39,671 nucleotides of DNA, taken from Daejeonella sp. GTDB lineage: Bacteria; Bacteroidota; Bacteroidia; Sphingobacteriales; Sphingobacteriaceae. The first letter of the stretch is position 1. The number at the start of each line of letters is the position of its first letter. The notes below the pieces were generated by a model, which searched no databases, was not told the DNA's origin, and was given only the letters and a program-made list of their open reading frames with translations. The stretch is taken from NCBI RefSeq assembly GCF_030684675.1, contig NZ_JAUXXZ010000079.1, positions 1-39,671 on the forward strand, given 5' to 3'. Below are positions 18,776 through 32,934 of this stretch, one piece after another. Both the position numbers and the translations under genes were made by a program.

Positions 18776-20230
18776 CTAAGCTCCCAACGTCCAGCCCTTA
18801 CGGTATTCCCGCTTAACGAACTGATTGGCTTCATCAAAGTTGGTAATTTTCATATTAGGGCCATCCCAAAGCAGTTTTTTATATCTTCCCGGATAGGTGA
18901 AACCATTCCCTGAAGCATTTGCTTTACGGATATCAAAACCCCGGATTGCTAAATTCCCCATCAGCAGGGCTTCAGTCAGAGGACCTGCAATAGAAAAGTC
19001 AGAACTAACCTCCTGTTTTCCATATCCCGCAATTGCAGCATCAACCCATTGAGTATAATGTCCTGCCTCTTGTCCCGGAACCCGTGCAAGTGTTGCAGGC
19101 ACATTGATTTCAGCATTACGTGATGCTGGTAAAAGTCTTGGATTTTTACCATAGGTATCGCAAAGCATTTTACCTTTTGTACCGATAAATAATACTCCAT
19201 TACCACCATCTCCAAATATCTCATCAGAACCCAGCTCCTGCGGACGGGCAGGTTGTATTCCACCATCCATCCAGTGCATTTTAACCTCTGCATTATTTTG
19301 CTTGCCGGAGTTAAAAGTCATAATTACATGAGAAGATGGAGGGCAGCTTTCAGGGAAGTATCCTCGTTTAAACTGATCCACATACACACTTCCCACACTA
19401 CACTCAACATCAGTAGGATATTTCAGACCTAAAACCCGGAATGGTGCATCAACCAGATGACAACCCATATCCCCTAATGCTCCTGTACCATAATCCCACC
19501 ATCCACGCCAGTTAAAAGGAACCAGCTTATCTACATAATCTGTCTGAGGAGCAGTACCAAGCCATAAATCCCAGTTAAGTTCTTTTGGAATATCACTTTT
19601 TGTTGCAGGCCATGCAACACCTTGTGGCCAAACAGGCCTGTCAGTCCAGCAATAAACTGTATGCACGTCACCAATCACTCCGGCATTATACCATTCTATT
19701 AGTTTACGAGTACCGTCACTGGATGCACCCTGATTACCCATCTGAGTTACTACTTTATAACGCACAGCAGCTTCTGTTAGAATCCTTGCTTCATAAATAT
19801 CATGAGTGAGGGGTTTCTGAACATAAACATGTTTCTTCAACTGCATTGCTGCAAGCGTGGTGATTGCGTGATTATGATCGGGAGTCGAAACCGAAACCGC
19901 ATCGAAATGTTTTGATTCTTTATCAAACATCTCGCGCCAGTCTTTATAGTATTTAGCTTTTGGGAAATTTTTAACAGATCCGGCAGCCCTGCGATCATCT
20001 ACATCACATAAAAATCCGATTTCTGCCTTTCCTCCACTCGCAAAACCGGTAAGGTCGCTCGCTCCTTTACCACCGGCACCTACACCGGCGATTACCAAAC
20101 GATCGCTAGGTGCTATAAAACCTTTACCACCCAAAACATGGCGGGGTACAATCATAAAACCTGCCGCAGCTAAAGCGGTAGTTTTCACGAAATCTCTTCT
20201 GGAACTACCAGACTTTCTTTCTTCCTTCAT
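18776..20230 (-). CDS. Tat-exported Gfo/Idh/MocA family oxidoreductase
   Basis: A 484-residue protein with a twin-arginine signal (SRRDFVKTTALAAAGFMIVP, residues 10-29). A Rossmann segment follows (VIAGVGAGGKGASDLTGFA), then a family motif with QKP instead of EKP (HVYVQKPLTHD) and the long substrate domain of the exported Bacteroidetes subgroup. Tat export fits folding around a tightly bound NAD(P) cofactor. Related exported enzymes act on glycosides, either by transient oxidation at C3 as in GH109 or in 3-keto-sugar formation. It is the last gene of the minus-strand set after the GMC pair (36-base gap) and is followed by a terminator. Confidence 0.9.
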   Translation of the reverse strand: MKEERKSGSSRRDFVKTTALAAAGFMIVPRHVLGGKGFIAPSDRLVIAGVGAGGKGASDLTGFASGGKAEIGFLCDVDDRRAAGSVKNFPKAKYYKDWREMFDKESKHFDAVSVSTPDHNHAITTLAAMQLKKHVYVQKPLTHDIYEARILTEAAVRYKVVTQMGNQGASSDGTRKLIEWYNAGVIGDVHTVYCWTDRPVWPQGVAWPATKSDIPKELNWDLWLGTAPQTDYVDKLVPFNWRGWWDYGTGALGDMGCHLVDAPFRVLGLKYPTDVECSVGSVYVDQFKRGYFPESCPPSSHVIMTFNSGKQNNAEVKMHWMDGGIQPARPQELGSDEIFGDGGNGVLFIGTKGKMLCDTYGKNPRLLPASRNAEINVPATLARVPGQEAGHYTQWVDAAIAGYGKQEVSSDFSIAGPLTEALLMGNLAIRGFDIRKANASGNGFTYPGRYKKLLWDGPNMKITNFDEANQFVKREYRKGWTLGA

Positions 20231-20266
20231 AAATATAGTTCAGATTATTAATGATCATTGTTCCTT

Positions 20267-20833
20267 TTATGCCCAGGCACGGTCGCCTTTTTTATAGGGC
20301 AGATTTCCATTATAACTTCCCGGTGTTTCAACATATTTCAGGGCCTTTGTGGCTCCAACTTCAGAGGTAAAAAAGCCTAGCAGGGTTAATTCCTTCATCA
20401 TTCTGAAATAATGAGCAGGATCCTCTGTCGACTTCTTTTCAGTATAGGCCTTTTGTTCTGCATCCAGTGTACTAAGGTATGAAGTACGTTCCTCCGGACT
20501 GCAGTCTATGAAGTTTTTTCCGGTCTTATCCTTACATCCTTTATCCAGACTCTGTATCCCTGCTTTAAAAATTTCCTGATCGGCCTTAGTATAACAATCC
20601 TTAACCATCACATTCATAAATTCACCCACCTTAGCTTCTTTAGCTCCGGGGGTGTTGGTTTTTGGCAGTATGGTCTCTGCTATCTCATTGAGCAGGTCAG
20701 TGGTCGACTTATCAAAAAAATCTGAGGTCTGCTGAGTGCTTGAATTACATCCGTATTCAAGAAATATACTTGAACCGATAATAGTTCCGCCTAAAATCCA
20801 GCTAACTTTCTGTATTGCTTCTCTTCTGTTCAT
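20267..20833 (-). CDS. gluconate 2-dehydrogenase subunit 3 family protein (small Tat subunit)
   Basis: A 188-residue protein with N-terminal RREAIQKVSWILGG, a Tat-like twin-arginine and hydrophobic core, and a possible lipobox LEYGC at about residue 29. The body (TDLLNEIAETILPKTNTPGA, GEFMNVMVKDCY) matches the gluconate 2-dehydrogenase subunit 3 family. In characterised FAD-dependent sugar dehydrogenases this small subunit carries the Tat signal and takes the signal-less GMC catalytic subunit across the membrane. The GMC gene ends 11 bases upstream, which fits exactly. It ends six residues after KKGDRA, a normal C-terminus. Confidence 0.88.
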   Translation of the reverse strand: MNRREAIQKVSWILGGTIIGSSIFLEYGCNSSTQQTSDFFDKSTTDLLNEIAETILPKTNTPGAKEAKVGEFMNVMVKDCYTKADQEIFKAGIQSLDKGCKDKTGKNFIDCSPEERTSYLSTLDAEQKAYTEKKSTEDPAHYFRMMKELTLLGFFTSEVGATKALKYVETPGSYNGNLPYKKGDRAWA

Positions 20834-20844
20834 GATTTCCTGAA

Positions 20845-22524
20845 TTAAATATTTCCCTTTTTCAGTTCGCTTACCGCATGATCAACAGCACGTGCCGTTA
20901 GAGCCATATAAGTCAATGATGGATTCTGGCAGGCAGCCGAAGTCATTGCAGCACCATCGGTAACAAATACATTTGGCGCGTCCCAAACCTGATTAAATTT
21001 ATTTAGCACCGATGTTTTCGGATCCAATCCCATACGGGCAGTACCCATTTCATGGATTCCCTGTCCCAGGGCATAACCTGTATCAAATGTCTTAACATCC
21101 TTTAGTCCTGAATTTTCGAGCATTTCCTTCGCATCCTCCATCATATCCTTTCTCATTTTCAGCTCATTCTCCTTAATCTCGGCATCAATTGCCAAAACAT
21201 TCAAACCCCATTTATCCTTTTTGGTTTTGTCGATAGTGACTTTATTTTCATGATAAGGGAGTGTCTCGCCAAAAGCAGTGATACCCATCGTCCATGCTCC
21301 CGGTTCGCATAGAGCATCTTTAAAGTCAGCTCCAATATTCATTTCAGCAACATTTCGGCCCCAGCCTTCGCGGCTCGCTCCGCCCTGGTAACCGAATCCA
21401 CGTATGTAATCCCGTTTATCATCTCCTATGTTCCGGAAGCGTGGGATATAAATTCCAGTTGGTCTTCGTCCAAAATAGTATTTATCCTCAAAACCTTCCA
21501 TTTTACCGGATGCCCCAAGACGGAAATGATGATCCATCAGGTTATGTCCCAATTCTCCGCTGCTGCTCCCAAGTCCACCATCCCAGATATCTGTTGCCGA
21601 ATTCATTAGAATCCACGTAGAATTTAAAGTAGAGGCATTCAGGAAGATTATTTTTGCAAAGTACTCGTAAGTCTTGTTTGTTTCTGCGTCAAGCACTTCG
21701 ACACCCTTTGCTTTTTTAGTATCCTTATCATAAAGGATCTTTGTGACAATTGAAAATGGACGCAATGTTAAATTACCTGTCGCCACTGCTGCAGGGAGGG
21801 TTGAAGATTGTGTACTAAAATATCCCCCGAAAGGGCAACCCAAGGAACATTTACTGCGGTACTGGCAATTTGTACGTCCGGGAAGCGCCTTTGTTAAATT
21901 AGCTGCTCTGCCTATGACCATGTGACGGTCACCTTTATAATGTGCTTTGATACGGGCAGCTACCTCTTTCTCAACCACATTCATTTCCATACCAGGCTGA
22001 AACTCACCATCAGGAAGCTGAGCTAAACCATTTCTGGTACCACTAATCCCTGCAAATCGTTCTACATGGCTATACCATTTCTCCAGATCCTTATACCTGA
22101 TTGGCCAGTCGACTGCAATACCATCTTTTGCATTGGCTTCAAAATCCATTTCGCTAAGGCGATAACTTTGGCGCCCCCACATCAAAGATCTCCCACCTAC
22201 ATGATATCCGCGATACCAGTCGAAACGTTTTACTTCTGTATAAGGGCTATCCTGATCACTCGCCCAAAAATTTAAATTCTTTTCGCTTAGCGGGTAGTCT
22301 CTTTTTAATACCGGATAATCTTCGATCATCTGCTGGGTTCGTCCGCCTCTGTGGGGAAACTCCCAAGGACCTTTTGTCGCATTTTCATAGCCCTTTACAT
22401 GCTCAACGTTGCGACCACGTTCAAGCATGATAGTTTTCAGACCCTTCTCTGTGAGTTCCTTGGCAGCCCAGCCACCACTGATCCCCGAACCAATCACTAT
22501 TGCATCATACGTATTATCAGCCAT
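20845..22524 (-). CDS. GMC-type FAD-dependent sugar dehydrogenase, catalytic subunit
   Basis: A 559-residue GMC oxidoreductase. The FAD dinucleotide fold is at the N-terminus (AIVIGSGISGGWAAKELTE, residues 8-26, then MLERG), with GGRSLMWGRQSYR in the FAD-binding region. A Cys-rich CQYRSKCSLGCPFGG resembles the Fe-S or Cys cluster seen in GMC subunits of membrane dehydrogenases. VFVTDGAAMTSAACQNPSLT closes the FAD domain. It has no signal peptide and likely travels with the Tat-tagged small subunit encoded 11 bases downstream. Family members oxidise gluconate, glucose or glucosides (C2 or C3) and pass electrons to cytochrome c. The neighbouring ThuA and DUF1080 genes favour glucoside 3-dehydrogenase activity, an inference. 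Confidence 0.9.
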   Translation of the reverse strand: MADNTYDAIVIGSGISGGWAAKELTEKGLKTIMLERGRNVEHVKGYENATKGPWEFPHRGGRTQQMIEDYPVLKRDYPLSEKNLNFWASDQDSPYTEVKRFDWYRGYHVGGRSLMWGRQSYRLSEMDFEANAKDGIAVDWPIRYKDLEKWYSHVERFAGISGTRNGLAQLPDGEFQPGMEMNVVEKEVAARIKAHYKGDRHMVIGRAANLTKALPGRTNCQYRSKCSLGCPFGGYFSTQSSTLPAAVATGNLTLRPFSIVTKILYDKDTKKAKGVEVLDAETNKTYEYFAKIIFLNASTLNSTWILMNSATDIWDGGLGSSSGELGHNLMDHHFRLGASGKMEGFEDKYYFGRRPTGIYIPRFRNIGDDKRDYIRGFGYQGGASREGWGRNVAEMNIGADFKDALCEPGAWTMGITAFGETLPYHENKVTIDKTKKDKWGLNVLAIDAEIKENELKMRKDMMEDAKEMLENSGLKDVKTFDTGYALGQGIHEMGTARMGLDPKTSVLNKFNQVWDAPNVFVTDGAAMTSAACQNPSLTYMALTARAVDHAVSELKKGNI

Positions 22525-22567
22525 ACTCTTTATTTTTTATTTTCTATTTCTTGTTTCCTTTTTGATA

Positions 22568-22592
22568 AAGGAGCAAAGAATAAGGAACAAAG
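22568..22592. repeat. short direct repeat AAGGA(G/A)CAAAG
   Basis: Two 11-base copies (22568-22578 and 22582-22592) differ at one base and are separated by three bases, in the 99-base gap between the isomerase and GMC genes. The copies are purine-rich on the plus strand and may belong to an interspersed low-complexity family. Confidence 0.6.
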
Positions 22593-22623
22593 ACTTAATC
22601 CTTCTTGCTCTTTAATCTCTTCT

Positions 22624-23406
22624 CTAAACATCACATATCCTGACAGCATCCTTTAACGACCAGGCTTTATCAGTATTTAATGGGATAAATTCCTGTGCAA
22701 CATAGCCTTTAAACCCCGTATCAAGTATTGCCCTCATGATTGAAGGATAATTAAGTTCCTGCGATTCATCTATCTCATGACGACCGGGCACTCCGGCAGT
22801 ATGATAATGAGCAATATACTGATTGTTGTCCTTTATCGTTCTGATTACATCGCCCTCATCAATCTGCATATGATAAATATCATATAAAAGTTTAAAATTT
22901 TCAGATCCTACTTTTTTTACCAGTTCAACACCCCAATGAGTTCTGTCACACTGATAATCAATATGATCGATCTTGCTATTGAGTAGCTCCATGACAATGG
23001 TTACTTTACTCTTTTCTGCAAGAGACATAATCTGCTTCAGACCCTCCGCACAATTTTGCAGTCCGGTTTCATCATCCATACCAGCTCTGTTCCCGCTAAA
23101 GCAAATCAAATTCTTATGTCCTGCTTTGGCAACCAGAGGAATCATTTCCCTGTAATTATTCAGTAATTCAAAATGATAAACCTTGTTATTCCAGCCCTTC
23201 TCCAAACTGATCTCTGCTCCGTTACACATGGTAGACTTGAGTCCATATTCTTCCAGGATCGGCCAGTCTGAAGGTCCAAGCAGGTCGATTCCGACCAACC
23301 CGATTTCATTTGCAAGTTTGCATAGTTCTTCAATCGAAAGTTCATCAAAGCACCAGCGGCAAACTGATTGATTAATATTACCTCTTAATGATTGAATACT
23401 AAGCAT
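22624..23406 (-). CDS. hydroxypyruvate-isomerase-like TIM-barrel protein
   Basis: A 260-residue xylose-isomerase-like TIM barrel. Metal-ligand strands appear in order: VIMELLNSKIDH-type segment (TIVMELLNSK), LLYDIYHMQIDEGD, AHYHTAGVPGRHE and GYVAQEFIP, giving the Glu, Asp, His, Glu set of the AP-endonuclease-2 superfamily. FCFDEL near the N-terminus (CRWCFDELSIEEL) is typical of the Hyi group. It interconverts keto and aldehyde forms or epimerises sugars, and the specific substrate is not visible. It has no signal peptide and lies 31 bases after the MFS gene, so it likely handles imported sugar in the cytoplasm. Confidence 0.85.
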   Translation of the reverse strand: MLSIQSLRGNINQSVCRWCFDELSIEELCKLANEIGLVGIDLLGPSDWPILEEYGLKSTMCNGAEISLEKGWNNKVYHFELLNNYREMIPLVAKAGHKNLICFSGNRAGMDDETGLQNCAEGLKQIMSLAEKSKVTIVMELLNSKIDHIDYQCDRTHWGVELVKKVGSENFKLLYDIYHMQIDEGDVIRTIKDNNQYIAHYHTAGVPGRHEIDESQELNYPSIMRAILDTGFKGYVAQEFIPLNTDKAWSLKDAVRICDV

Positions 23407-23437
23407 TTATTTAAAAACAAGAACAGTAAATAACCAA

Positions 23438-24694
23438 TCATATTACATCAGGACTTTTATCCATATTCCTTTCAGAATTTTCCTTTTTCTGGCTAAAAGT
23501 AAAAAAGAACAACACCGCAACTACCACCGCTATGCCTGAAGCAAGCATCCATATTTTTTCCCAGTCGTGCTGAGTATCTGAGAGTTTATAAGCATCACTA
23601 ACTATTCCAGCAACCCAGAAGCCAATCAACATTCCTATACCATAGGTAGCCAGTGTAATTAAACCCTGTGCTGCACTTTTATATTTATCACCTGCTTTTG
23701 AATTCGTGTATATCTGCCCCGAAACAAAGAAGAAGTCATAACAGATACCATGCAATGCTATTCCAACAATAAGCATGGAGATCAGTTCGTCTGCATTTCC
23801 ATATGCGAATAACGTATATCTGATAGCCCATGCAATCATCCCGACTAAAATGGTCTTTTTAAACCCAAATCGGCTAAAGAAAAGGGGGAGGAGCAGCAGG
23901 AATAATACCTCTGATACCTGCCCGATGGTCATTTTTCCGGTAGGATTTTCCATTCCGATTTCGGAAAGAAAGAGGTTTGCATTCTGATAATAAAATGCAA
24001 GAGGGATACAGATTAAAATGGATGAAATAAAGAAAATCAAAAAATTTCTATTATTCAGCATTTTAAGGGCGTCAAGTCCCAATAAAGATGATAAAGCCAC
24101 CTTTTCTCCTTTAAATACGGTGGGTGGAGTTTTTGGGAGGCTGAAACTGAAAACTCCCAGTATCACAGAAGATATCCCTGCCATAGCAAAGGTATTCCTT
24201 AAAAGTCCGTCCGTTACGCCTTCTGACGAGTCCCAGTGAAACAGGAAGCTGATGCATAAACCAGCAACGATCCAGCCAATAGTACCCCAAATACGAATCG
24301 AAGAGAACTCCTTTTCGGCACTTTTCATCTGGTTGAATGAAATTGAATTAACCAATGCAAGGGTAGGCATGAAGAGGATCATATACCCAAAAACATAAGG
24401 ATAAAACCCTGCAAAGTCAGTTGCATAATACATCTGAGACATCAAAACGGCTCCAATCAGATGAAGAATCCCAAGTATCCTTTCGGCATTGAAATACCTG
24501 TCGGCGATCAAACCAATTATGAAAGGAGCAATTATGGCCCCAAAGGACTGAGTAGAAAATACCGCAGCAGTTTCTGAACCATTTGCAAGGAGATTTCTGC
24601 CAAGGAAAGTACCAAGTGTAACAAACCATGAGCCCCAAATAAAAAATTCGAGGAACATCATGAAAGATAATTTAATGCGAGTGAACAGGTTCAT
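23438..24694 (-). CDS. MFS transporter, nucleoside:H+ symporter-like
   Basis: A 418-residue protein with about twelve membrane helices. The N-terminal FIWGSWFVTLGTFLGRNL and the loop IADRYFNAERILGI match the NHS (nucleoside:H+ symporter) branch of the major facilitator superfamily as annotated in Bacteroidetes. In this phylum the branch is often found beside Gfo/Idh/MocA and isomerase genes, and sugar or keto-sugar transport is as likely as nucleoside uptake. It is the first gene of the minus-strand set, with the divergent promoter region just upstream. It would move products of periplasmic oxidation into the cell, an inference from context. Confidence 0.88.
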   Translation of the reverse strand: MNLFTRIKLSFMMFLEFFIWGSWFVTLGTFLGRNLLANGSETAAVFSTQSFGAIIAPFIIGLIADRYFNAERILGILHLIGAVLMSQMYYATDFAGFYPYVFGYMILFMPTLALVNSISFNQMKSAEKEFSSIRIWGTIGWIVAGLCISFLFHWDSSEGVTDGLLRNTFAMAGISSVILGVFSFSLPKTPPTVFKGEKVALSSLLGLDALKMLNNRNFLIFFISSILICIPLAFYYQNANLFLSEIGMENPTGKMTIGQVSEVLFLLLLPLFFSRFGFKKTILVGMIAWAIRYTLFAYGNADELISMLIVGIALHGICYDFFFVSGQIYTNSKAGDKYKSAAQGLITLATYGIGMLIGFWVAGIVSDAYKLSDTQHDWEKIWMLASGIAVVVAVLFFFTFSQKKENSERNMDKSPDVI

Positions 24695-24769
24695 AAAATG
24701 CTTGATTGAACTAAAATAAGGAGCTGAATAAAAAAGATGACCTGCGGATCAGATGACTCATATAAAATC

Positions 24770-24812
24770 TTAAAATAAATGAAATTCAGATTTAATGTGT
24801 TTAAAATAAATG
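24770..24812. promoter_or_regulatory. paired direct repeats in the divergent promoter region
   Basis: TTAAAATAAATG occurs identically at 24770-24781 and 24801-24812. Starts are 31 bp apart, close to three helical turns, so both face the same side of DNA. They lie between the divergent MFS and ThuA-fusion genes and may be a shared regulator site. Both are AT-rich, so chance is possible. A TATATTTT near 24813 resembles a -7 box for the plus strand. Confidence 0.35.
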
Positions 24813-24901
24813 TATATTTTTATTTTTAATAATCATACTCAATTAAATACCATCCTGATCTTTTAACAGGCTGATAACATCCTCAGAACATAAAAATAAC
24901 C

Positions 24902-27900
24902 ATGAAAAGAATTTACAAACTGTTGCCATTCTCTTTGCTGATACTTGCCCTGTTTGCTTTCACCAAATGGGAACAAGCAGTTAAACCCAGAGTCCTTGTC
25001 TTTAGTAAAACTGCAGCTTACAGGCATGAGTCGATTGCAGCAGGTAAGACGGCTTTGATCAAATTGGGTAAGGAAAACGGATTTATTGTCGATACCACCG
25101 AAAACGAGAATTATTTCAATGATGATTCCCTGAAAAACTATTCTGCAGTGATTTTCCTGAGTACCACCGGTAACATATTGAACAGTCCGCAGCAAATCAG
25201 TTTTGAAAGGTTTATTCAGGCCGGTGGTAGTTATGTCGGAATTCATGCAGCAGCTGATACTGAATACGACTGGGAATGGTATGGAAAATTGGTGGGCGGA
25301 TATTTCAAAAGCCATCCAAAGATTCAGGAAGCTACGATGATTGTGAATGACCGCACACACCTCTCCACAAAACACCTTGATGAAAAATGGGTTCATAAAG
25401 ATGAATGGTATAATTACAAAAATTTGAATCAGGACGTAAAGGTTTTGATCTCTTTGGATGAAAAGAGTTATACAGGTGGAGAAAATGGAGATTATCATCC
25501 TATTGCATGGCATCATGAATTTGAAGGAGGAAGAGCCTTTTATACTGGTATGGGACATACTAATGAATCATACTCTGATCAGCTTTTCCTGAAACATCTT
25601 CTTGGAGGTATAAAATATGCGATCGGAAATAATGTTCCATTAAATTATGTTAAAGCCAAAACACCTCCAGTACCTGAAGAAAACCGTTTCGTAAAAACAG
25701 TTCTGACTACAGGAACCTTGTTTGAACCGACTGAAATGGCGATCCTTCCGAATCTAGACATCCTGCTAGTTCAAAGAAGGGGAGAGATAATGCTTTATAA
25801 AGAGAAAAGCAAAAGTATATCACAGGTTGGCTTTTTAAATGCCTATCACAAAACCGCAGTTGCGGGTGTGAACGCTGAAGAGGGAGTGCTTGGAATTGCA
25901 ACTGACCCGGCCTTCAAAGAGAATAATTACGTTTATATTTTCTACAGTCCGATAGATACCTCAGTAAACCGTCTCTCACGGTTCAAATTTGTGAACGACA
26001 GGCTGGATAACTCATCTGAAAAAGTAATTCTGGAGTTCTATTCGCAAAGAGAGATATGCTGCCATACCGGAGGATCAATTGCCTTTGGCCCTGATGGACT
26101 CTTATATGTTTCGGCTGGTGATAATGCAACCCCGTTTGATGTACCAAAACAGACTTTTGTAAATAAAGGCTACGGGCCTATGGACAACCGCCCGGGGCTT
26201 CAACAATATGATGCCAGAAGATCCTCAGGTAATACCAATGACCTTCGTGGAAAAATTATGAGGATAAAGGTAAATGAGGATGGCAGCTATAGCATTCCGG
26301 AGGGAAATTTATTTCCACCCAATACACCTGGTACAAGACCAGAGATTTATGTAATGGGAAACAGAAACCCTTACCGAATCTCCATCGACAAGAAAACAGG
26401 ATTCCTTTACTGGGGTGAGGTAGGCCCTGATGCGAATGCCGATAGTCCCGAAAGAGGATCGAGAGGCTACGATGAATTGAACCAGGCAAGAAAGGCGGGC
26501 TTTTTTGGATGGCCATTTTTCGTAGGGAATAATTACCCATACCGGGCATACGATTATACCAATGGAACAATCGGTGAGGCATTTGATCCGGCTAAGCCTT
26601 ATAATAATTCGCCAAACAATACTGGTCTGGAATATCTTCCTCCAGTTTCACCCGCATTTATCTGGTATCCTTATGCGGCTTCAAAGGAATTTCCTCAGGT
26701 TGGTACCGGAGGCAGAAATGCAATGGCAGGACCGGTTTATCATACTGAATTGTATCCTAAGGAAACTCGTTATCCTGATTATTATAACAATAAACTATTT
26801 ATTTACGACTGGATCAGAGGCTGGATAAAGGCGGTTACCATGAAACCTAATGGTGATTACGATAATATGGAGGCCTTTATGCCGATGACAAACTTCTCCT
26901 CTCCGATCGATATGGAATTGGGACCTGATGGACGCATCTATATTCTGGAATACGGAAAAGGCTGGTTCTCAAAAAATCCTGATGCAGGTATATCCAGAAT
27001 TGATTTCGTTGCCGGCAACCGCCCTCCAAAGATTAAAGAATTAATCATAAGCAAAACAAGCGGAGTACTTCCATTTAAATTGCAAGCCAAAGTTGAAGCC
27101 AGCGATCCCGATAAGGATAAAATGAATTATGTCTGGGAGCTTGGCAATGGGATCAAAAAATCAACTATACTGCCAAGTATCGAACATACCTTTACTAAAG
27201 CGGGAGAATATGCAATCAGCGTTCTGGCAATCGACAAAAATTTTGCAAGTACCAATAGCAGTCCGGTAACCATTTCTGCAGGAAATGCCCAGCCCAAGGT
27301 CAGTATTCAGTTAAAGGGAAATCAGATTTTTTATTTTGCCGGAAAACCGGTAGAGTACGATGTTACAGTCAGTGATGAGGGTTCTACGGTCAATAAAAAC
27401 ACCATTTATGTAGCGAATAATTATACTAAAGGTACAGACCTTGCAGGAGCTTCAATGGGGCATCAGGTATTTACAGAAGTACAGGCCGGGCAGGCTTTGA
27501 TGCTTAAATCAGATTGCCAGTCCTGTCATCAGGTAAGTACCAAATCTATTGGTCCATCGTACACCCAGGTGTCTGCAAAATACCAAAGTGATCCTAACGC
27601 AGTTACTTATCTGGCTGCAAAGATCATTAAAGGGGGTGGTGGAACATGGGGAGAGGTAGCAATGCCAGCTCACTCAACTATGAACGATGATGATGCAAAG
27701 AAAATAGCTCAATGGGTTTTATCACTTGAGAATAAAGCTGTAAATAAGGCCACTTTGCCAATTCAGGGAAGTATTATCCCTGCACAGGAATCTGAAAATA
27801 ATATTTTTAGCATCTACGCTTCTTATACAGATCAGGGACAAGCTGGACTGAAACCCCTGACAGGCTCTGCTACAGTTTATCTTAGAAGCAATATAATTAA

Positions 27901-28285
27901 TGCAAGAGAAATCACTGATAGAACCAGAATTGGTTTGAAAGACTCAACCAATACCGGTTTTCTGATCTATCCACAAAACAATGGATGGTTCAAACTGAGC
28001 AATATGGATTTATCAGGCATCAGGAATTTAGAATTTGCTAATCTTTCAAAAGGCGGCGGGGGTATTTATAATGTTGAGGTCCGTGCGAATTCAGAGAGCG
28101 GGGCGCTTATCGGAAAAAGCAGTTTTACGGATGGAGAAATTCCGGACCAGCAAAGCAATACCCTTGTTCAGCTTAATATTCCCGCCGACAAAAAGATAAG
28201 TAACTTGTTTGTGCTTATTATATCCGACCCTAAAAATTTAAAACCCAGGCCACTCCTTAAAGCTGTTACTTTCAAGCCGGAATAA
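24902..28285 (+). CDS. ThuA / PQQ-type sugar dehydrogenase / PKD / cytochrome c fusion protein
   Basis: An exported 1127-residue multidomain protein. In order: an N-terminal signal (MKRIYKLLPFSLLILALFAF), then a ThuA domain (about 29-245: RVLVFSKTAAYRHESI, YVGIHAAADTEYDWEWYG). A six-bladed glucose/sorbosone-dehydrogenase propeller follows (about 265-690: GVLGIATDP, HTGGSIAFGPDGLLYVSAGD, GNRNPYRI). Next are a PKD-like domain (about 705-785) and a class I cytochrome c with C872-Q-S-C875-H876 and axial Met921. A beta-rich CBM6-like tail closes it (about 965-1127). ThuA relatives act in 3-keto-disaccharide metabolism. The propeller normally oxidises sugars with PQQ, and the haem could accept the electrons. 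It is the first gene of the plus arm and is followed after 18 bases by the epimerase gene. Confidence 0.92.
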   Translation: MKRIYKLLPFSLLILALFAFTKWEQAVKPRVLVFSKTAAYRHESIAAGKTALIKLGKENGFIVDTTENENYFNDDSLKNYSAVIFLSTTGNILNSPQQISFERFIQAGGSYVGIHAAADTEYDWEWYGKLVGGYFKSHPKIQEATMIVNDRTHLSTKHLDEKWVHKDEWYNYKNLNQDVKVLISLDEKSYTGGENGDYHPIAWHHEFEGGRAFYTGMGHTNESYSDQLFLKHLLGGIKYAIGNNVPLNYVKAKTPPVPEENRFVKTVLTTGTLFEPTEMAILPNLDILLVQRRGEIMLYKEKSKSISQVGFLNAYHKTAVAGVNAEEGVLGIATDPAFKENNYVYIFYSPIDTSVNRLSRFKFVNDRLDNSSEKVILEFYSQREICCHTGGSIAFGPDGLLYVSAGDNATPFDVPKQTFVNKGYGPMDNRPGLQQYDARRSSGNTNDLRGKIMRIKVNEDGSYSIPEGNLFPPNTPGTRPEIYVMGNRNPYRISIDKKTGFLYWGEVGPDANADSPERGSRGYDELNQARKAGFFGWPFFVGNNYPYRAYDYTNGTIGEAFDPAKPYNNSPNNTGLEYLPPVSPAFIWYPYAASKEFPQVGTGGRNAMAGPVYHTELYPKETRYPDYYNNKLFIYDWIRGWIKAVTMKPNGDYDNMEAFMPMTNFSSPIDMELGPDGRIYILEYGKGWFSKNPDAGISRIDFVAGNRPPKIKELIISKTSGVLPFKLQAKVEASDPDKDKMNYVWELGNGIKKSTILPSIEHTFTKAGEYAISVLAIDKNFASTNSSPVTISAGNAQPKVSIQLKGNQIFYFAGKPVEYDVTVSDEGSTVNKNTIYVANNYTKGTDLAGASMGHQVFTEVQAGQALMLKSDCQSCHQVSTKSIGPSYTQVSAKYQSDPNAVTYLAAKIIKGGGGTWGEVAMPAHSTMNDDDAKKIAQWVLSLENKAVNKATLPIQGSIIPAQESENNIFSIYASYTDQGQAGLKPLTGSATVYLRSNIINAREITDRTRIGLKDSTNTGFLIYPQNNGWFKLSNMDLSGIRNLEFANLSKGGGGIYNVEVRANSESGALIGKSSFTDGEIPDQQSNTLVQLNIPADKKISNLFVLIISDPKNLKPRPLLKAVTFKPE

Positions 28286-28303
28286 ATTTATAAAAAACAG
28301 GAT

Positions 28304-29476
28304 ATGATATTGCACCGAACACTCATTCTGCCGTGTTTTTGTCTGCTTGCTTTGTTTGCTTGCAATTCAACAACAAATAAAGATTCCGGAATAAATTCTG
28401 ACAGTTCCTCCATTTTTAATCTGAAATCAAAAACTGCATTTCAAAAAATCATTGATGGTAAGAAAACAGATTTATACTTTTTAAGGAACAAGAACAATGC
28501 AGAGGCTGCTCTTACAAATTATGGTGCAAGGATCGTGAGCCTTAGCGTACCTGACCGATCGGGTAAATTAACAGATGTGGTAGTGGGCTTTACAGGTGTT
28601 GAAGCCTATCAGCAATCTACTGAGCCTTATTTTGGAGCCACAATCGGGCGCTACGGCAATCGCATCGCAGGCGGAAGATTCAAACTCGATGGTCAGGAAT
28701 ATTCAATTTTCATCAATAATAATCCGAATGCACTGCACGGCGGAAAAAAAGGCTTTCAGGATGTAGTTTGGGATGTCCGGCAAGTAAACGATCAAACTTT
28801 AGAGTTTAGCTATCTGTCAAAAGATATGGAAGAGGGATTTCCAGGGAACCTGCAGGTGAAAGTTATTTATACCCTGTCTGATGATAATGAGCTTATGATT
28901 GATTATAAAGCATCAACCGACAGGAAAACAATTGTAAATCTGACCAACCATGCATTTTTCAATTTAAATGGTGAAGGTAGTGGCAGCATTCTCAACCATA
29001 CCCTGCAGATCAATGCAGAGCAATATACACCGGTAGATTCAACTCTTATTCCATTGGGAAAAATAGAATCTGTAGCGGGCAGTCCCTTTGATTTCAGAAA
29101 AGCAGTAAAAATAGGCGACAGAATTGAAGATAATAATATTCAACTGAAGTACGGGAAAGGTTATGATCATAATTATGTATTAAATCTGGCTGAAATCGGC
29201 GTGATGAAATCTGCTGCAATTGCAAAAGGTGATCAATCAGGGATTGTTATGGAAGTATTTACTCAGGAACCCGGCCTTCAGTTTTACAGCGGGAATTTTA
29301 TGCAGGGTAAAAACACCTTTAAAGGAGGCAGTAAGGATGATTTCAGAACAGCATTCTGCCTCGAAACACAGCATTTCCCCGACTCGCCCAATCAGCCGGC
29401 ATTTCCAACAACTGTTCTGAATCCCGGAGAAGTCTACAAAACAAATACTGTTTATAAATTCTCATTGAACAAATAA
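28304..29476 (+). CDS. aldose 1-epimerase (galactose mutarotase), lipoprotein
   Basis: A 390-residue protein with a lipoprotein signal (lipobox ALFAC, Cys20) and a full GalM fold. Family markers: LTNYGARIVSLSVPDR, GRYGNRIAGGRF, NNPNALHGGKKGFQDVVW, the catalytic His in NLTNHAFFNL and the catalytic Glu in FCLETQHFPDSPNQPAFP. Mutarotases interconvert alpha and beta anomers of aldoses. In the periplasm it would supply the anomer the dehydrogenases use. The stop codon TAA is inside the 13-bp stem of the following hairpin. Confidence 0.94.
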   Translation: MILHRTLILPCFCLLALFACNSTTNKDSGINSDSSSIFNLKSKTAFQKIIDGKKTDLYFLRNKNNAEAALTNYGARIVSLSVPDRSGKLTDVVVGFTGVEAYQQSTEPYFGATIGRYGNRIAGGRFKLDGQEYSIFINNNPNALHGGKKGFQDVVWDVRQVNDQTLEFSYLSKDMEEGFPGNLQVKVIYTLSDDNELMIDYKASTDRKTIVNLTNHAFFNLNGEGSGSILNHTLQINAEQYTPVDSTLIPLGKIESVAGSPFDFRKAVKIGDRIEDNNIQLKYGKGYDHNYVLNLAEIGVMKSAAIAKGDQSGIVMEVFTQEPGLQFYSGNFMQGKNTFKGGSKDDFRTAFCLETQHFPDSPNQPAFPTTVLNPGEVYKTNTVYKFSLNK

Positions 29477-29499
29477 TCCTGAATTTAATTCAGGATTAT
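29473..29499 (+). terminator. perfect 27-nt hairpin at the epimerase stop codon
   Basis: Arms of 13 bases (ATAATCCTGAATT and its complement) flank one T, spanning the stop codon, with only TTT after it. It probably ends, or attenuates, the ThuA-epimerase transcript before the next four genes. Confidence 0.6.
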
Positions 29500-29565
29500 T
29501 TCCGGCAGACAAGAACAAAATTTTATATTTAATGTCGATTTGACACGAATAATTTTTAGCCTTAA

Positions 29566-30726
29566 ATGATGAAAAGAAAATTAAGAATGGGAATGATTGG
29601 CGGTGGTAAAGATGCCTTTATCGGAGCCATTCACCGCATTGCAGCCAATATGGATGGCCTTATTGAGCTTGTATGCGGAGCCCTCAGTTCCAGTCCGGAA
29701 AAGGCCCTCGAAAGCGGCAGAACCCTGTTTCTTCCGGAAGACCGGATTTATCCGAATTATGAAGAAATGATACTTCAGGAGAGTCGTCTCCCTGCCGGAC
29801 AGCGGATGGATTTTGTTAGTATTGTAACCCCAAACCATGCCCACTTTGCACCGGCGATGATGGCTCTGGAACATGGCTTTCATGTGGTGATTGATAAACC
29901 AATCACCTTTACACTTGAGGAAGCTAAACTGCTGAAGAAAAAAACCGAAGAAACGGGACTTAGTTTATTGCTGACCCATACCTATGCTGGTTATCCTATG
30001 GTTAAACAGGCCAGGGAAATGGTTAAAGCTGGCGAACTGGGTAAGATCAGAAAGATTATTGTAGAATACCCTCAGGGATGGTTAAGCAGATTATCTGAAA
30101 AGGATGGCAACCCTCAGGCTGCATGGCGAACAGACCCCGCAAGATCAGGAAAAAGCGGATGTATGGGTGATATTGGAACCCATGCCGCACATCTCGCTGA
30201 ATATATCAGTGGATTAAAGATTATAAAATTATGTGCAGACCTCAGCATTGTGGTTGATGGAAGAGCTTTGGACGATGATGGCAACGTGCTGCTCAAATTT
30301 GAGAATGGTTCAAATGGGGTCTTGATTGCCTCTCAAATTGCAGCGGGAGAAGAAAATGCACTCCGGATCAGAGTATATGGTGAAAAGGGTGGACTCGAAT
30401 GGGCACAACAGGAACCTAATACTCTAATTCTGAAATGGCTGGATGCTCCGGTTCAAATTTTAAGGGCGGGTGGGCATCAGCTTTCAAGCTATGCTGCGTT
30501 TAACAGCCGTACACCGGGAGGTCATCCTGAAGGATATCTTGAAGCATTTGCTAATCTGTACCGGAATTTTGCTCTATGTGTTTCGGCAAAAAATGAAGGT
30601 ATAAAAGCAGCTCCCGAAGCATACGACTACCCTTCAGTTGATGAAGGCATCAGAGGAATGGCTTTTATCAATAATGTGGTAAACAGCAGCTTAAGTAATG
30701 ATAAATGGACAAATTTTGAAGTTTAA
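29566..30726 (+). CDS. cytosolic Gfo/Idh/MocA family oxidoreductase
   Basis: A 386-residue protein with an N-terminal Rossmann fold (RMGMIGGGKDAFIGAIHRIA, residues 7-26) and the dinucleotide-binding-strand motif with DKP (FHVVIDKPITF) in place of EKP. The C-terminal domain ends PSVDEGIRGMAFINNVV. It has no signal peptide and acts in the cytosol. The family converts sugars to keto sugars or back with NAD(P)H. It is followed after nine bases by a TIM-barrel isomerase, a pairing also seen in characterised keto-sugar pathways. Upstream is a perfect hairpin that may separate it from the ThuA-epimerase genes. Confidence 0.9.
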   Translation: MMKRKLRMGMIGGGKDAFIGAIHRIAANMDGLIELVCGALSSSPEKALESGRTLFLPEDRIYPNYEEMILQESRLPAGQRMDFVSIVTPNHAHFAPAMMALEHGFHVVIDKPITFTLEEAKLLKKKTEETGLSLLLTHTYAGYPMVKQAREMVKAGELGKIRKIIVEYPQGWLSRLSEKDGNPQAAWRTDPARSGKSGCMGDIGTHAAHLAEYISGLKIIKLCADLSIVVDGRALDDDGNVLLKFENGSNGVLIASQIAAGEENALRIRVYGEKGGLEWAQQEPNTLILKWLDAPVQILRAGGHQLSSYAAFNSRTPGGHPEGYLEAFANLYRNFALCVSAKNEGIKAAPEAYDYPSVDEGIRGMAFINNVVNSSLSNDKWTNFEV

Positions 30727-30735
30727 AAATAGATT

Positions 30736-31788
30736 ATGACTACAATAAAGGGACCTGCAATATTTCTTGCACAGTTTTTAGGTGATACCGCACCATTCAA
30801 CAGCCTGGAATCAATTTGTAAATGGGCAAAAAGTCTTGGATTCGAAGGCGTACAGATCCCAACCTGGGATCCGCGCTGTATCGATCTTCAAAAGGCTGCA
30901 GAAAGTAAAACCTATGCGGATGAAATCAAAGGGATTGTGAATTCATGCGGTATGGAGATCACGGAGTTGTCTACTCACCTGCAGGGACAGCTGGTCGCTG
31001 TGAATCCGGCATATGATCTGCTTTTCGATGGCTTCGCTCCTGCCAGTGTGCACAACAATCCGAAAGCCCGTACAGAATGGGCCGTTCAACAATTAAAATA
31101 TGCTGCAATTGCTTCAAAGCACATGGGCATCACTGCACATGCTACATTCAGCGGATCATTATTATGGCATACCTGGCATCCATGGCCGCAGAGGCCAGCC
31201 GGACTGGTTGATGCAGGATTTAAAGAACTGGCAAGACGCTGGCTTCCAATCCTGGATCATTTTGACCAGCATGGTGTGGATGTTTGTTATGAAATCCATC
31301 CTGGTGAGGATCTTTTCGATGGAGTAACCTATGAAATGTTCCTTGAGAAAGTAAACAATCATTCCAGGGCCTGTCTGCTTTATGATCCCTCCCACTTTGT
31401 ATTGCAATGCCTCGATTATGTCCAATATATTGACCATTATCATGAGCGCATCAAAGCATTCCATGTGAAGGACGCAGAATTCAATTCAACAGGCAAACAG
31501 GGCACCTTTGGTGGATACCAGAACTGGGCTGACAGAGCTGGCCGGTACCGCTCTCCCGGCGATGGTCAGGTTGATTTCAAAAGGATCTTCAGCAAACTGA
31601 CACAATATGATTTTAAAGGCTGGGCTGTAATGGAATGGGAATGCTGTATCAAGCATCCTGAAGATGGGGCACGCGAAGGAGCAGCATTCATCAAAGATCA
31701 TATCATCAGAGTAACTGAAAGGGCATTTGATGATTTTGCAGGTACCGGAAGCAATGAGGAGTTTAACCGAAAAATTCTCGGTATTTAA
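30736..31788 (+). CDS. sugar phosphate isomerase/epimerase (TIM barrel)
   Basis: A 350-residue xylose-isomerase-like TIM barrel. Metal-ligand segments in order: VCYEIHPGEDLFDG, LLYDPSHFVLQCLDY, AFHVKDAEFN and WAVMEWECC, supplying the usual Glu, Asp/His, His, Glu set. It is larger than the Hyi-type gene in the minus arm because of inserted loops (HTWHPWPQRPAGL, GGYQNWADRAGRYRSPGDG). The start ATG is nine bases after the oxidoreductase stop. It probably acts on the oxidoreductase product, and the exact substrate is unknown. Confidence 0.9.
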   Translation: MTTIKGPAIFLAQFLGDTAPFNSLESICKWAKSLGFEGVQIPTWDPRCIDLQKAAESKTYADEIKGIVNSCGMEITELSTHLQGQLVAVNPAYDLLFDGFAPASVHNNPKARTEWAVQQLKYAAIASKHMGITAHATFSGSLLWHTWHPWPQRPAGLVDAGFKELARRWLPILDHFDQHGVDVCYEIHPGEDLFDGVTYEMFLEKVNNHSRACLLYDPSHFVLQCLDYVQYIDHYHERIKAFHVKDAEFNSTGKQGTFGGYQNWADRAGRYRSPGDGQVDFKRIFSKLTQYDFKGWAVMEWECCIKHPEDGAREGAAFIKDHIIRVTERAFDDFAGTGSNEEFNRKILGI

Positions 31789-31829
31789 TTATTAATCATT
31801 ATTTTCAAGCAATAATTTATCAAAAAAAT

Positions 31830-32234
31830 ATGAAAAAAATACTAATCGTTTTAGGGGTTTGCAGCGTAATTTTGGCATGTAATAGTGCTGAAAAATCAGA
31901 AAGTACAGAGGACACAACAGCCGCAGTTGAACAAGTTGCCGTTGACACCAGTGCTGCTCCGGCAAGCGCAGGCTCTGCAAAAGGTGAGCAGTTGATCAGT
32001 GGTTCAGATTGTCTGACTTGTCATAAAGTTGATGCTAAGATTGTTGGCCCATCTTATGCTGATGTTGCCAATAAATACGAAGCTTCTGAAGCAAACATTG
32101 AGATGCTTGCCGGCAAAATCATTAATGGCGGATCCGGTTCATGGGGTGAAATCCCAATGGCACCACACGCAGCCCTAAGTACAGATGATGCAAAGGAAAT
32201 GGTTAAATACATTCTTTCCTTAAAAACTAAATAA
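31830..32234 (+). CDS. cytochrome c lipoprotein (class I, monohaem)
   Basis: A 134-residue protein with a lipoprotein signal (lipobox VILAC, Cys17), an Ala/Ser/Thr-rich linker (about 25-52) and a single haem domain: C61-L-T-C64-H65, VGPSYADVANKY and axial Met110 in EIPMAPH. His-to-Met spacing (45) is identical to the haem domain of the ThuA fusion, and the two domains align throughout, so they are duplicates. It can carry electrons from the GMC or propeller dehydrogenases to the respiratory chain. Stop and the next ATG are one base apart. Confidence 0.94.
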   Translation: MKKILIVLGVCSVILACNSAEKSESTEDTTAAVEQVAVDTSAAPASAGSAKGEQLISGSDCLTCHKVDAKIVGPSYADVANKYEASEANIEMLAGKIINGGSGSWGEIPMAPHAALSTDDAKEMVKYILSLKTK

Positions 32235-32235
32235 T

Positions 32236-32934
32236 ATGAAAAAAATCAGTCTGATTATTCTCAGCGCAGTTCTACTTTCCGGCTGTGGCTCAAACAAAAA
32301 CAGCATGAATTCCAAAGGATGGCAGAAATTATTTGACGGTAAAACAACTACCGGATGGCATAGCTATGGTAAAACAAGCGCCGGAACTGATTGGAAAGTT
32401 GTTGATGGTGTGCTTTACCTCGACGCTAAAAACAGACAGCCCGGACAAGGGGGGGATTTAACCACCAATGATTCATTCGATAATTTCCATCTCAGGATGG
32501 AATGGAAAATATCCAAAAATGGAAACAGTGGGATCATCTTTTATGTAAATGAGGACTTGTCAAAATACAAATCATCCTATAATACAGGTCCCGAGATGCA
32601 GGTGCTGGACAATGACGGCCATGCAGACGGCAAAATTCATAAACATCGCGCCGGAGATCTCTATGATCTTATTGCCAGTAGTTCTGAACCCGTAAACCCG
32701 GTTGGACAGTGGAATAAAGTGGAAATCATTGCCAACAATGGCAAACTTGACTTTTTCATGAACGGCAAAAACATTGTTTCTACAACCATGTGGGATGATG
32801 ACTGGAAAAAAATGGTAGCCGGAAGTAAGTTCAATACCATGCCAGGGTTCAGCATCTACAAATCCGGAAAAATCGCAATCCAGGATCATGGTGATGAGGT
32901 TTGGTACAGGAATATTGAGATTAAGAAACTGTAA
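32236..32934 (+). CDS. DUF1080 (3-keto-disaccharide hydrolase family) lipoprotein
   Basis: A 232-residue protein with a lipoprotein signal (lipobox LLSGC, Cys17) and a DUF1080 concanavalin-like beta-sandwich: GWQKLFDGKTTTGWHSYG, LRMEWKISKNGNSGIIFYV, and closing AIQDHGDEVWYRNIEIKKL. Members of this family cleave 3-keto-glycosides by elimination and hydration after C3 oxidation, which fits the dehydrogenases around it. It is the last gene of the plus arm, one base after the cytochrome gene. A GA-rich repeat begins four bases after its stop, before its terminator. Confidence 0.92.
   Translation: MKKISLIILSAVLLSGCGSNKNSMNSKGWQKLFDGKTTTGWHSYGKTSAGTDWKVVDGVLYLDAKNRQPGQGGDLTTNDSFDNFHLRMEWKISKNGNSGIIFYVNEDLSKYKSSYNTGPEMQVLDNDGHADGKIHKHRAGDLYDLIASSSEPVNPVGQWNKVEIIANNGKLDFFMNGKNIVSTTMWDDDWKKMVAGSKFNTMPGFSIYKSGKIAIQDHGDEVWYRNIEIKKL

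Follow-up and report, generated by a model that had tools for sequence, protein, structure and literature searches.

The window analysed here, a stretch of 39,671 nucleotides from Daejeonella sp. (Bacteroidota; Sphingobacteriaceae; contig NZ_JAUXXZ010000079.1), carries a locus of eleven open reading frames (ORFs) that is likely to work as a single unit in the oxidative breakdown of glycosides. We describe its families, conserved residues, leader motifs and gene order as observed. The ORFs lie in two divergent arms 207 bp apart: the minus-strand arm (18776-24694) has five and the plus-strand arm (24902-32934) six (Table 1). Pfam assigns two PF01261 TIM barrels, two Gfo/Idh/MocA proteins, a GMC dehydrogenase with a Gluconate_2-dh3 partner, a ThuA fusion, an Aldose_epim protein, two cytochrome c domains, a PF06439 protein (DUF1080, at present named 3keto-disac_hyd) and a Nuc_H_symport/MFS transporter. 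These assignments agree throughout with the original prediction, which placed the same families in two arms. The locus is not a chance assemblage, because the same gene set recurs in related genomes.

Table 1. Features of the divergent locus, by position in the window
Feature	Position	Strand	Evidence
Tat-exported Gfo/Idh/MocA oxidoreductase, BT2158-related	18776..20230	-	NF058561 493.5 bits; leader SRRDFVK
GMC small subunit, Gluconate_2-dh3 family	20267..20833	-	PF13618 139.9 bits; twin-arginine leader, lipobox-like Cys
GMC flavin dehydrogenase large subunit	20845..22524	-	PF00732/PF05199; no signal peptide
TIM barrel (AP_endonuc_2), hydroxypyruvate-isomerase/YcjR-like	22624..23406	-	PF01261; leader lost in this lineage
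MFS transporter, Nuc_H_symport type	23438..24694	-	PF03825 376.9 bits
24-bp near-palindrome AAAATAAATGTATATTTTTATTTT	24803..24826	.	Candidate operator or promoter part, in 207-bp intergenic region
Exported fusion: ThuA, GSDH (PQQ-type), PKD, cytochrome c, CBM6-like stretch	24902..28285	+	Pfam; leader by eye
Lipoprotein-type aldose 1-epimerase (GalM)	28304..29476	+	PF01263 301.5 bits; lipobox by eye
Cytosolic Gfo/Idh/MocA, likely 3-keto-sugar reductase	29566..30726	+	PF22725/PF01408; 3v5n 406.7 bits; no leader
Cytosolic TIM barrel, 2-hydroxy-3-keto-glucal hydratase type	30736..31788	+	8ro4 570 bits
Cytochrome c, lipoprotein-type leader	31830..32234	+	PF00034 39.9 bits
DUF1080/3keto-disac_hyd, lipoprotein-type leader	32236..32934	+	PF06439 175.3 bits (cut-off 26.8)

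The best solved relatives of the GMC large subunit are fructose dehydrogenase and glucose dehydrogenase. C220, C226 and C230 (C-x5-C-x3-C) align with cysteines of fructose dehydrogenase and, like H491 and N534, are invariant across 15 aligned sequences; the cysteine motif is present in 42 of 42 distinct orthologues (at least 70% identity). We take the three cysteines to be ligands of a 3Fe-4S cluster, and we take the GlycDH of Agrobacterium tumefaciens to be a GMC protein too. The large subunit is leaderless and its small subunit bears a twin-arginine pair (RR) that recurs in 41 of 41 distinct orthologues, the start being mis-called in at least one. This is consistent with joint export of the two subunits through the twin-arginine translocation (Tat) system. 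A search for solved relatives of the small subunit returned none at E ≤ 1.

Comparison across genomes drew on 40 regions, each of at most 20 kb and containing a GMC homologue, mostly taken at the best-scoring places: nine from the genus and 31 others (30 in other genera, of which two share a genome, plus the own-genome paralogue L138). A c-type cytochrome also lies within 16 of the 31 other loci. Among distinct orthologues of the cytochrome c lipoprotein, CxxCH is found in 27 of 27 and a lipobox-like motif in 20 of 27, and this protein is probably the electron acceptor of the GMC pair. The locus shows the hallmarks of LacABC-type dehydrogenases, namely a GMC protein with the cysteine motif and the His/Asn residues, an adjacent subunit with a Tat leader and a clustered c-type cytochrome. 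The GMC pair is predicted to oxidise glycosides at C3, a position read from its homologues, and homology of the GMC and DUF1080 families supports the proposal that C3 oxidation is followed by cleavage of the keto-glycoside.

A second exported protein may carry out the same oxidation. Of the two Gfo/Idh/MocA proteins, previously described as one exported and one cytosolic, one does have a twin-arginine leader and the other does not. RR occurs within the first 25 residues in 27 of 29 distinct orthologues of the former, and the leader motif predicts a periplasmic location. Its best phmmer matches among solved structures are 8tdf (346.1 bits) and 8tdh (337 bits), which we take to be BT2158-type dehydrogenases, in agreement with the NF058561 match. 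The real redundancy at the locus is between two exported C3-dehydrogenase candidates, the GMC pair and this Tat-Gfo/Idh protein. At a related locus (L040:4319-5625), two ORFs (DUF1828/DUF1829 and DUF6978) are inserted between the small-subunit and Tat-Gfo/Idh genes.

The Tat-Gfo/Idh protein could instead be a sugar-to-sugar transhydrogenase with tightly bound NAD(H), like glucose-fructose oxidoreductase, that couples oxidation of one glycoside to reduction of another keto sugar and feeds nothing into respiration. The twin-arginine leader places the protein outside the cytosol, in a compartment where free NAD is not expected, and glucose-fructose and aldose-aldose oxidoreductases, distant members of the superfamily, are among the matches of the cytosolic paralogue. 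These oxidoreductases are, however, absent from the exported protein's own 25 matches, and its nearest solved relatives are the BT2158-type dehydrogenases. We regard a transhydrogenase as a serious possibility that stops a little short of being probable.

The DUF1080 lipoprotein, whose solved relatives are 4jqt, 4hxc, 8rr2 and 8tda and which has a lipobox-like motif in 16 of 20 distinct orthologues, is by its family probably the enzyme that cleaves 3-keto-glycosides. The Daejeonella genome contains 13 DUF1080 domain matches, some of them two per ORF, which suggests that it has several keto-glycoside systems. A homologue of the transporter was not found beside the TIM barrel in the genus loci L045, L122 and L124.

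Cleavage might proceed by plain hydrolysis, in which case DUF1080 would release 3-keto-hexose into the periplasm, leaving only a stray glycal or another substrate to the hydratase-like TIM barrel. The Pfam family is named for 3-keto-disaccharide hydrolase, and hydrolysis has been proposed (PMC9007349; this and the other papers below are cited for passages of their text). Set against this is the plus-arm TIM barrel, which would be superfluous for pure hydrolysis: its residues 1-350 match residues 1-349 of the 2-hydroxy-3-keto-glucal hydratase 8ro4 at 570 bits, it lacks a leader (no RR in the first 25 residues in 27 of 27 distinct orthologues), and a homologue also lies within 15 of the 31 other GMC loci. 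Hydrolysis alone is therefore possible but somewhat doubtful, and we assign the plus-arm TIM barrel to the 2-hydroxy-3-keto-glucal hydratase type, with that activity as its predicted one.

Elimination-hydration chemistry has been published (PMC10628242, PMC7676230), and in the four-step pathways described there a hydratase-type protein acts after an eliminase and before a Gfo/Idh reductase. By analogy with these pathways, the cytosolic Gfo/Idh/MocA protein of our locus is more likely to be the final reductase than a parallel oxidation branch. The original prediction of an exported respiratory branch beside a cytosolic NAD-linked branch holds, by homology, for the periplasmic respiratory dehydrogenase, but its cytosolic half is better read as this last reductive step. 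The two supposed TIM-barrel isomerases are both TIM barrels, but the plus-arm protein matches a hydratase and the minus-arm protein is epimerase-like. With the hydratase match and the reductase role, the enzymes of the locus appear mostly to perform sequential steps, and the idea of duplicated functions is not supported.

The profile matches of the minus-arm TIM barrel include 3ngf, 3-epimerases and 6wn6 (YcjR, E 2.7e-4), and Foldseek comparison of its predicted structure (mean pLDDT 89.6) ranks 3ngf at 1-2 and 6wn6 at 3-4. It probably epimerises keto sugars. An RR leader is present in 21 of 27 distinct orthologues and absent from the window protein, a loss that seemingly relocated the enzyme from the periplasm to the cytosol in this lineage. 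The orthologues of L039, L041-L044 and L050 are also leaderless, and in L040/L119 the ORF is just 111 residues long.

We also considered that this TIM barrel is an eliminase, with DUF1080 only a helper. LgdB1/LgdB2 and AtOGE/AtHYD bore the same kind of annotation, as sugar phosphate isomerases/epimerases (PMC7676230, PMC10628242), most orthologues have the RR leaders noted above, and Foldseek places the C-glycoside enzyme 7drd at ranks 27-29. The profile search gave this assignment no support: the O-glycoside eliminase AtOGE (8BVK) is absent from its 29 matches at E ≤ 0.1, in which AP_endonuc_2 chains including 7exz score no better than E 0.053-0.067, and 8BVK is likewise absent from the 50 listed Foldseek matches. 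The top fold ranks, held by 3ngf and the 4-epimerase YcjR, the lost leader and the shortened ORF of L040 point the same way. We consider an eliminase unlikely here and retain keto-sugar epimerisation.

The ThuA fusion proved larger than described, since it also contains GSDH (of the pyrroloquinoline quinone (PQQ) type) and PKD domains. The GSDH domain scores 118.4 bits against a cut-off of 25; the C-terminal CBM6-like match is weak (CBM_6 18.6 bits, under the Pfam cut-off of 28.9). GSDH His388, presumably the catalytic residue, is invariant in 14 aligned fusion sequences, nearly all labelled Bacteroidota, as is the Cys-Cys-His triplet at residues 386-388 to which it belongs and which precedes the GSDH glycine pair; the triplet possibly forms a vicinal disulfide near the cofactor. 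A predicted structure of the fusion was of low confidence (mean pLDDT 65.9, pTM 0.40) and was not used. A paralogue with GSDH, PKD and cytochrome c domains and no ThuA lies beside DUF1080 and Gfo/Idh genes elsewhere in the same genome (L164, G000:C83:2656-5978).

The closest records to the fusion come from metagenome-assembled genomes of Sphingobacteriales (95%) and Daejeonella (92%), and two related records of the same gene neighbourhood are named Sphingobacterium thalpophilum and Pedobacter schmidteae. The fusion is present in seven of nine further genus GMC loci and in none of the 31 others. As a protein it also exists beyond the genus: 41 of 121 family genomes, from 11 of 25 genera, have a match at E ≤ 1e-150, in some cases (such as G025 and G082) nearly full-length and in many over part of the query only. 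Outside the genus it does not adjoin GMC in the loci compared. The neighbouring GalM (galM_Leloir 342.5 bits, cut-off 397.65; PRK11055 334.1, cut-off 240) is found in three of nine genus loci and none of the 31 others; L126 and L127, which have no fusion, lack it, and L124 ends before its position. A tentative and rather improbable role for the fusion is that its GSDH domain oxidises the released (keto-)aldose at C1 and passes electrons to its own cytochrome c domain, with the lipoprotein mutarotase supplying the anomer in some members, the ThuA domain handling the keto sugar and the substrate being held by the CBM-like stretch, such that sugars would be oxidised at both C3 and C1 before uptake.

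A GMC match at E ≤ 1e-60 is present in 92 of 121 family genomes. Scoring nine core genes in the compared loci (tblastn match of at least 45% identity), we found at least seven in 15 of the 31 other loci, and each of these 15 has all its detected core genes on a single strand. The usual order there is GMC, Tat-Gfo/Idh, small subunit, cytosolic Gfo/Idh, hydratase, cytochrome c, DUF1080, transporter and TIM barrel, some loci having members missing. Genus loci reach seven of nine core genes in six of nine cases (some stretches end early) and never have them all on one strand. This single-strand clustering of both arms' homologues elsewhere suggests that the arms are one system that was split in this genus. 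A single change on a GMC tree accounts for all nine divergent loci (support 93/97; midpoint root, for drawing only), and by parsimony the single-strand form would be ancestral. L126 and L127 are divergent and have no fusion, so splitting may precede the additions.

The near-palindrome falls within the block that is best conserved in the intergenic alignment and is identical in eight of ten aligned sequences, with one mismatch in L058 and three in L050. The window contains one match at ≤2 mismatches, against 0.02 expected. At ≤3 mismatches, 16 of 20 genus genomes have 19 sites between them, compared with two for a control pattern; 15 of these genomes have a site between the two arms, and in G125 it lies elsewhere. 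The degenerate palindrome was not found at ≤3 mismatches in the 30 GMC loci from other genera (L128-L137, L139-L158) or in the paralogue L138. Five ThuA-bearing loci from elsewhere (L048, L082, L084, L085, L115) have a 3-mismatch match, which we take as chance. The Bacteroidota -7/-33 promoter pair was not found in the ten intergenic regions, and -7 alone occurs in three, the window not among them. In the genus, this shared intergenic region probably governs expression of both arms.

The sole other site in the Daejeonella genome at ≤3 mismatches, C45:9707, is beside a LacI gene. This gene lies in L163 (G000:C45:2798-10792) among GH88-like (just under cut-off), TIM-barrel, Gfo/Idh, SDR, MFS and DUF6807 genes, and the site shares an 18-bp block with the window palindrome. 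We rejected this LacI as the regulator: 95% orthologues occur in only two of 19 other genus genomes, and a separate palindrome, CAAACGTTTG, is present there.

That the arms are two neighbouring but unrelated sugar systems, as their opposite strands and the addition of the fusion and GalM to one arm only might suggest, is very improbable, given that 15 of 31 other loci cluster homologues of both arms on one strand and that the arms have a conserved palindrome in common.

From these features we infer reactions, substrates and regulation for a single system as follows. GMC, exported through Tat by means of the leader on its small subunit, would oxidise glycosides at C3 in the periplasm; electrons would pass via its flavin and its iron-sulfur centre to the cytochrome c lipoprotein, and from there to the oxidase. 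The DUF1080 lipoprotein would split the 3-keto-glycoside by elimination or hydrolysis, and the transporter would import the keto product. In the cytosol, the hydratase would add water to any 2-hydroxy-3-keto-glycal, the Gfo/Idh/MocA protein would reduce 3-keto-hexose to the normal hexose, and the minus-arm TIM barrel would probably epimerise keto sugars. Tat-Gfo/Idh would serve as a second periplasmic C3 dehydrogenase. The fusion, accompanied in some members by the lipoprotein mutarotase, would probably add another oxidation in the periplasm that feeds cytochrome c.

Several observations weigh against this scheme. Sixteen of the 31 other loci fall below seven of nine core genes and have smaller sets, many of them just GMC, small subunit and transporter, sometimes with Tat-Gfo/Idh, so the remaining core genes are separable. 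The exported Gfo/Idh/MocA protein scores below the equivalog cut-off of NF058561 (BT_2158_fam; 493.5 against 750 bits). With no match of the minus-arm TIM barrel to 8BVK at E ≤ 0.1, no eliminating enzyme was found at the locus, and no regulator was found either. In L122, L123 and L125, which have the fusion, GalM is missing and the cytosolic Gfo/Idh gene comes next; GalM is thus not a fixed companion of the fusion, which weakens the reading of a twofold oxidation at C3 and C1. A gene for pqqE is over cut-off in 0/20 genomes, but also in 0/14 control genomes, and pqqC is found in 0/20 genomes and over cut-off in 0/296 Bacteroidota (23/296 below it), with no control giving a match. Finally, in Pedobacter none of ten DUF1080 genes had a lactose phenotype in the passages cited, for which the authors invoke possible redundancy (PMC9007349).

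The core pathway, in which a LacABC-type flavin/iron-sulfur/cytochrome c glycoside 3-dehydrogenase acts with DUF1080, is already known (PMC9007349). New at this locus are the divergent arms with a shared control region, the multi-domain fusion, the occasional mutarotase and the second exported dehydrogenase. Among the papers listed from an open-licence library, which lacks most subscription journals, none was on point for the ThuA-PQQ-cytochrome combination and none described the divergent form together with the fusion. One recurring Sphingobacteriaceae gene set here joins LacABC/DUF1080, the oxidise-eliminate-hydrate-reduce pathway and a BT2158-type exported Gfo/Idh protein. It suggests that an 'epimerase' in such clusters is a glycal hydratase, makes the mode of 3-keto-glycoside cleavage and the identity of what passes the inner membrane directly testable, and offers in the fusion a concrete candidate for the role of a ThuA domain beside a respiratory sugar dehydrogenase.

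Among known systems, the locus resembles the Caulobacter LacABC locus in its three-component dehydrogenase, signal-bearing DUF1080, transporter, two sugar epimerases and one reductase, and differs in having two divergent arms, Tat-Gfo/Idh, the ThuA-GSDH-PKD-cytochrome c fusion and GalM, none of the last three being named in the cited passages (PMC9007349). Fitness data tie LacABC, DUF1080, the transporter, both epimerases and the reductase of Caulobacter, and a putative lactose dehydrogenase of Pedobacter, to lactose and other glycosides, and similar LacA/DUF1080 clusters occur in Bacteroidota, with clusters of Algoriphagus, Indibacter and Halomonas described (PMC9007349). It shares with the A. 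tumefaciens GlycDH operon (AtOGE, AtHYD) a dehydrogenase with a TAT-signal partner, a hydratase annotated as an isomerase, a Gfo reductase and the oxidise-eliminate-hydrate-reduce logic (PMC10628242); unlike that operon it has no AtOGE match in the minus-arm TIM barrel profile search, and it has DUF1080 and cytochrome c, neither of which is a term in the main text of PMC10628242. The levoglucosan system LgdA-B1-B2-C of Bacillus smithii likewise has four steps, two 'sugar phosphate isomerase' proteins and Gfo/Idh enzymes, but its first step is NAD-linked, whereas that of the window would use a flavin/cytochrome dehydrogenase (PMC7676230). BT2158, a periplasmic Gfo/Idh-type glycoside 3-dehydrogenase of Bacteroides (PMC11300592), is a relative of the exported Gfo/Idh protein, and its host also has a DUF1080 3-ketotrehalose hydrolase, BT2157 (PMC9007349); no GMC/cytochrome branch appears in the cited passages of PMC11300592, and the window protein is under the equivalog cut-off. 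The minus-arm TIM barrel, for its part, shares the fold of E. coli YcjR, a 3-keto-D-glucoside 4-epimerase (6wn6), from which it differs in its weak sequence relation (profile E 2.7e-4) and in the Tat-type leader of most of its orthologues.

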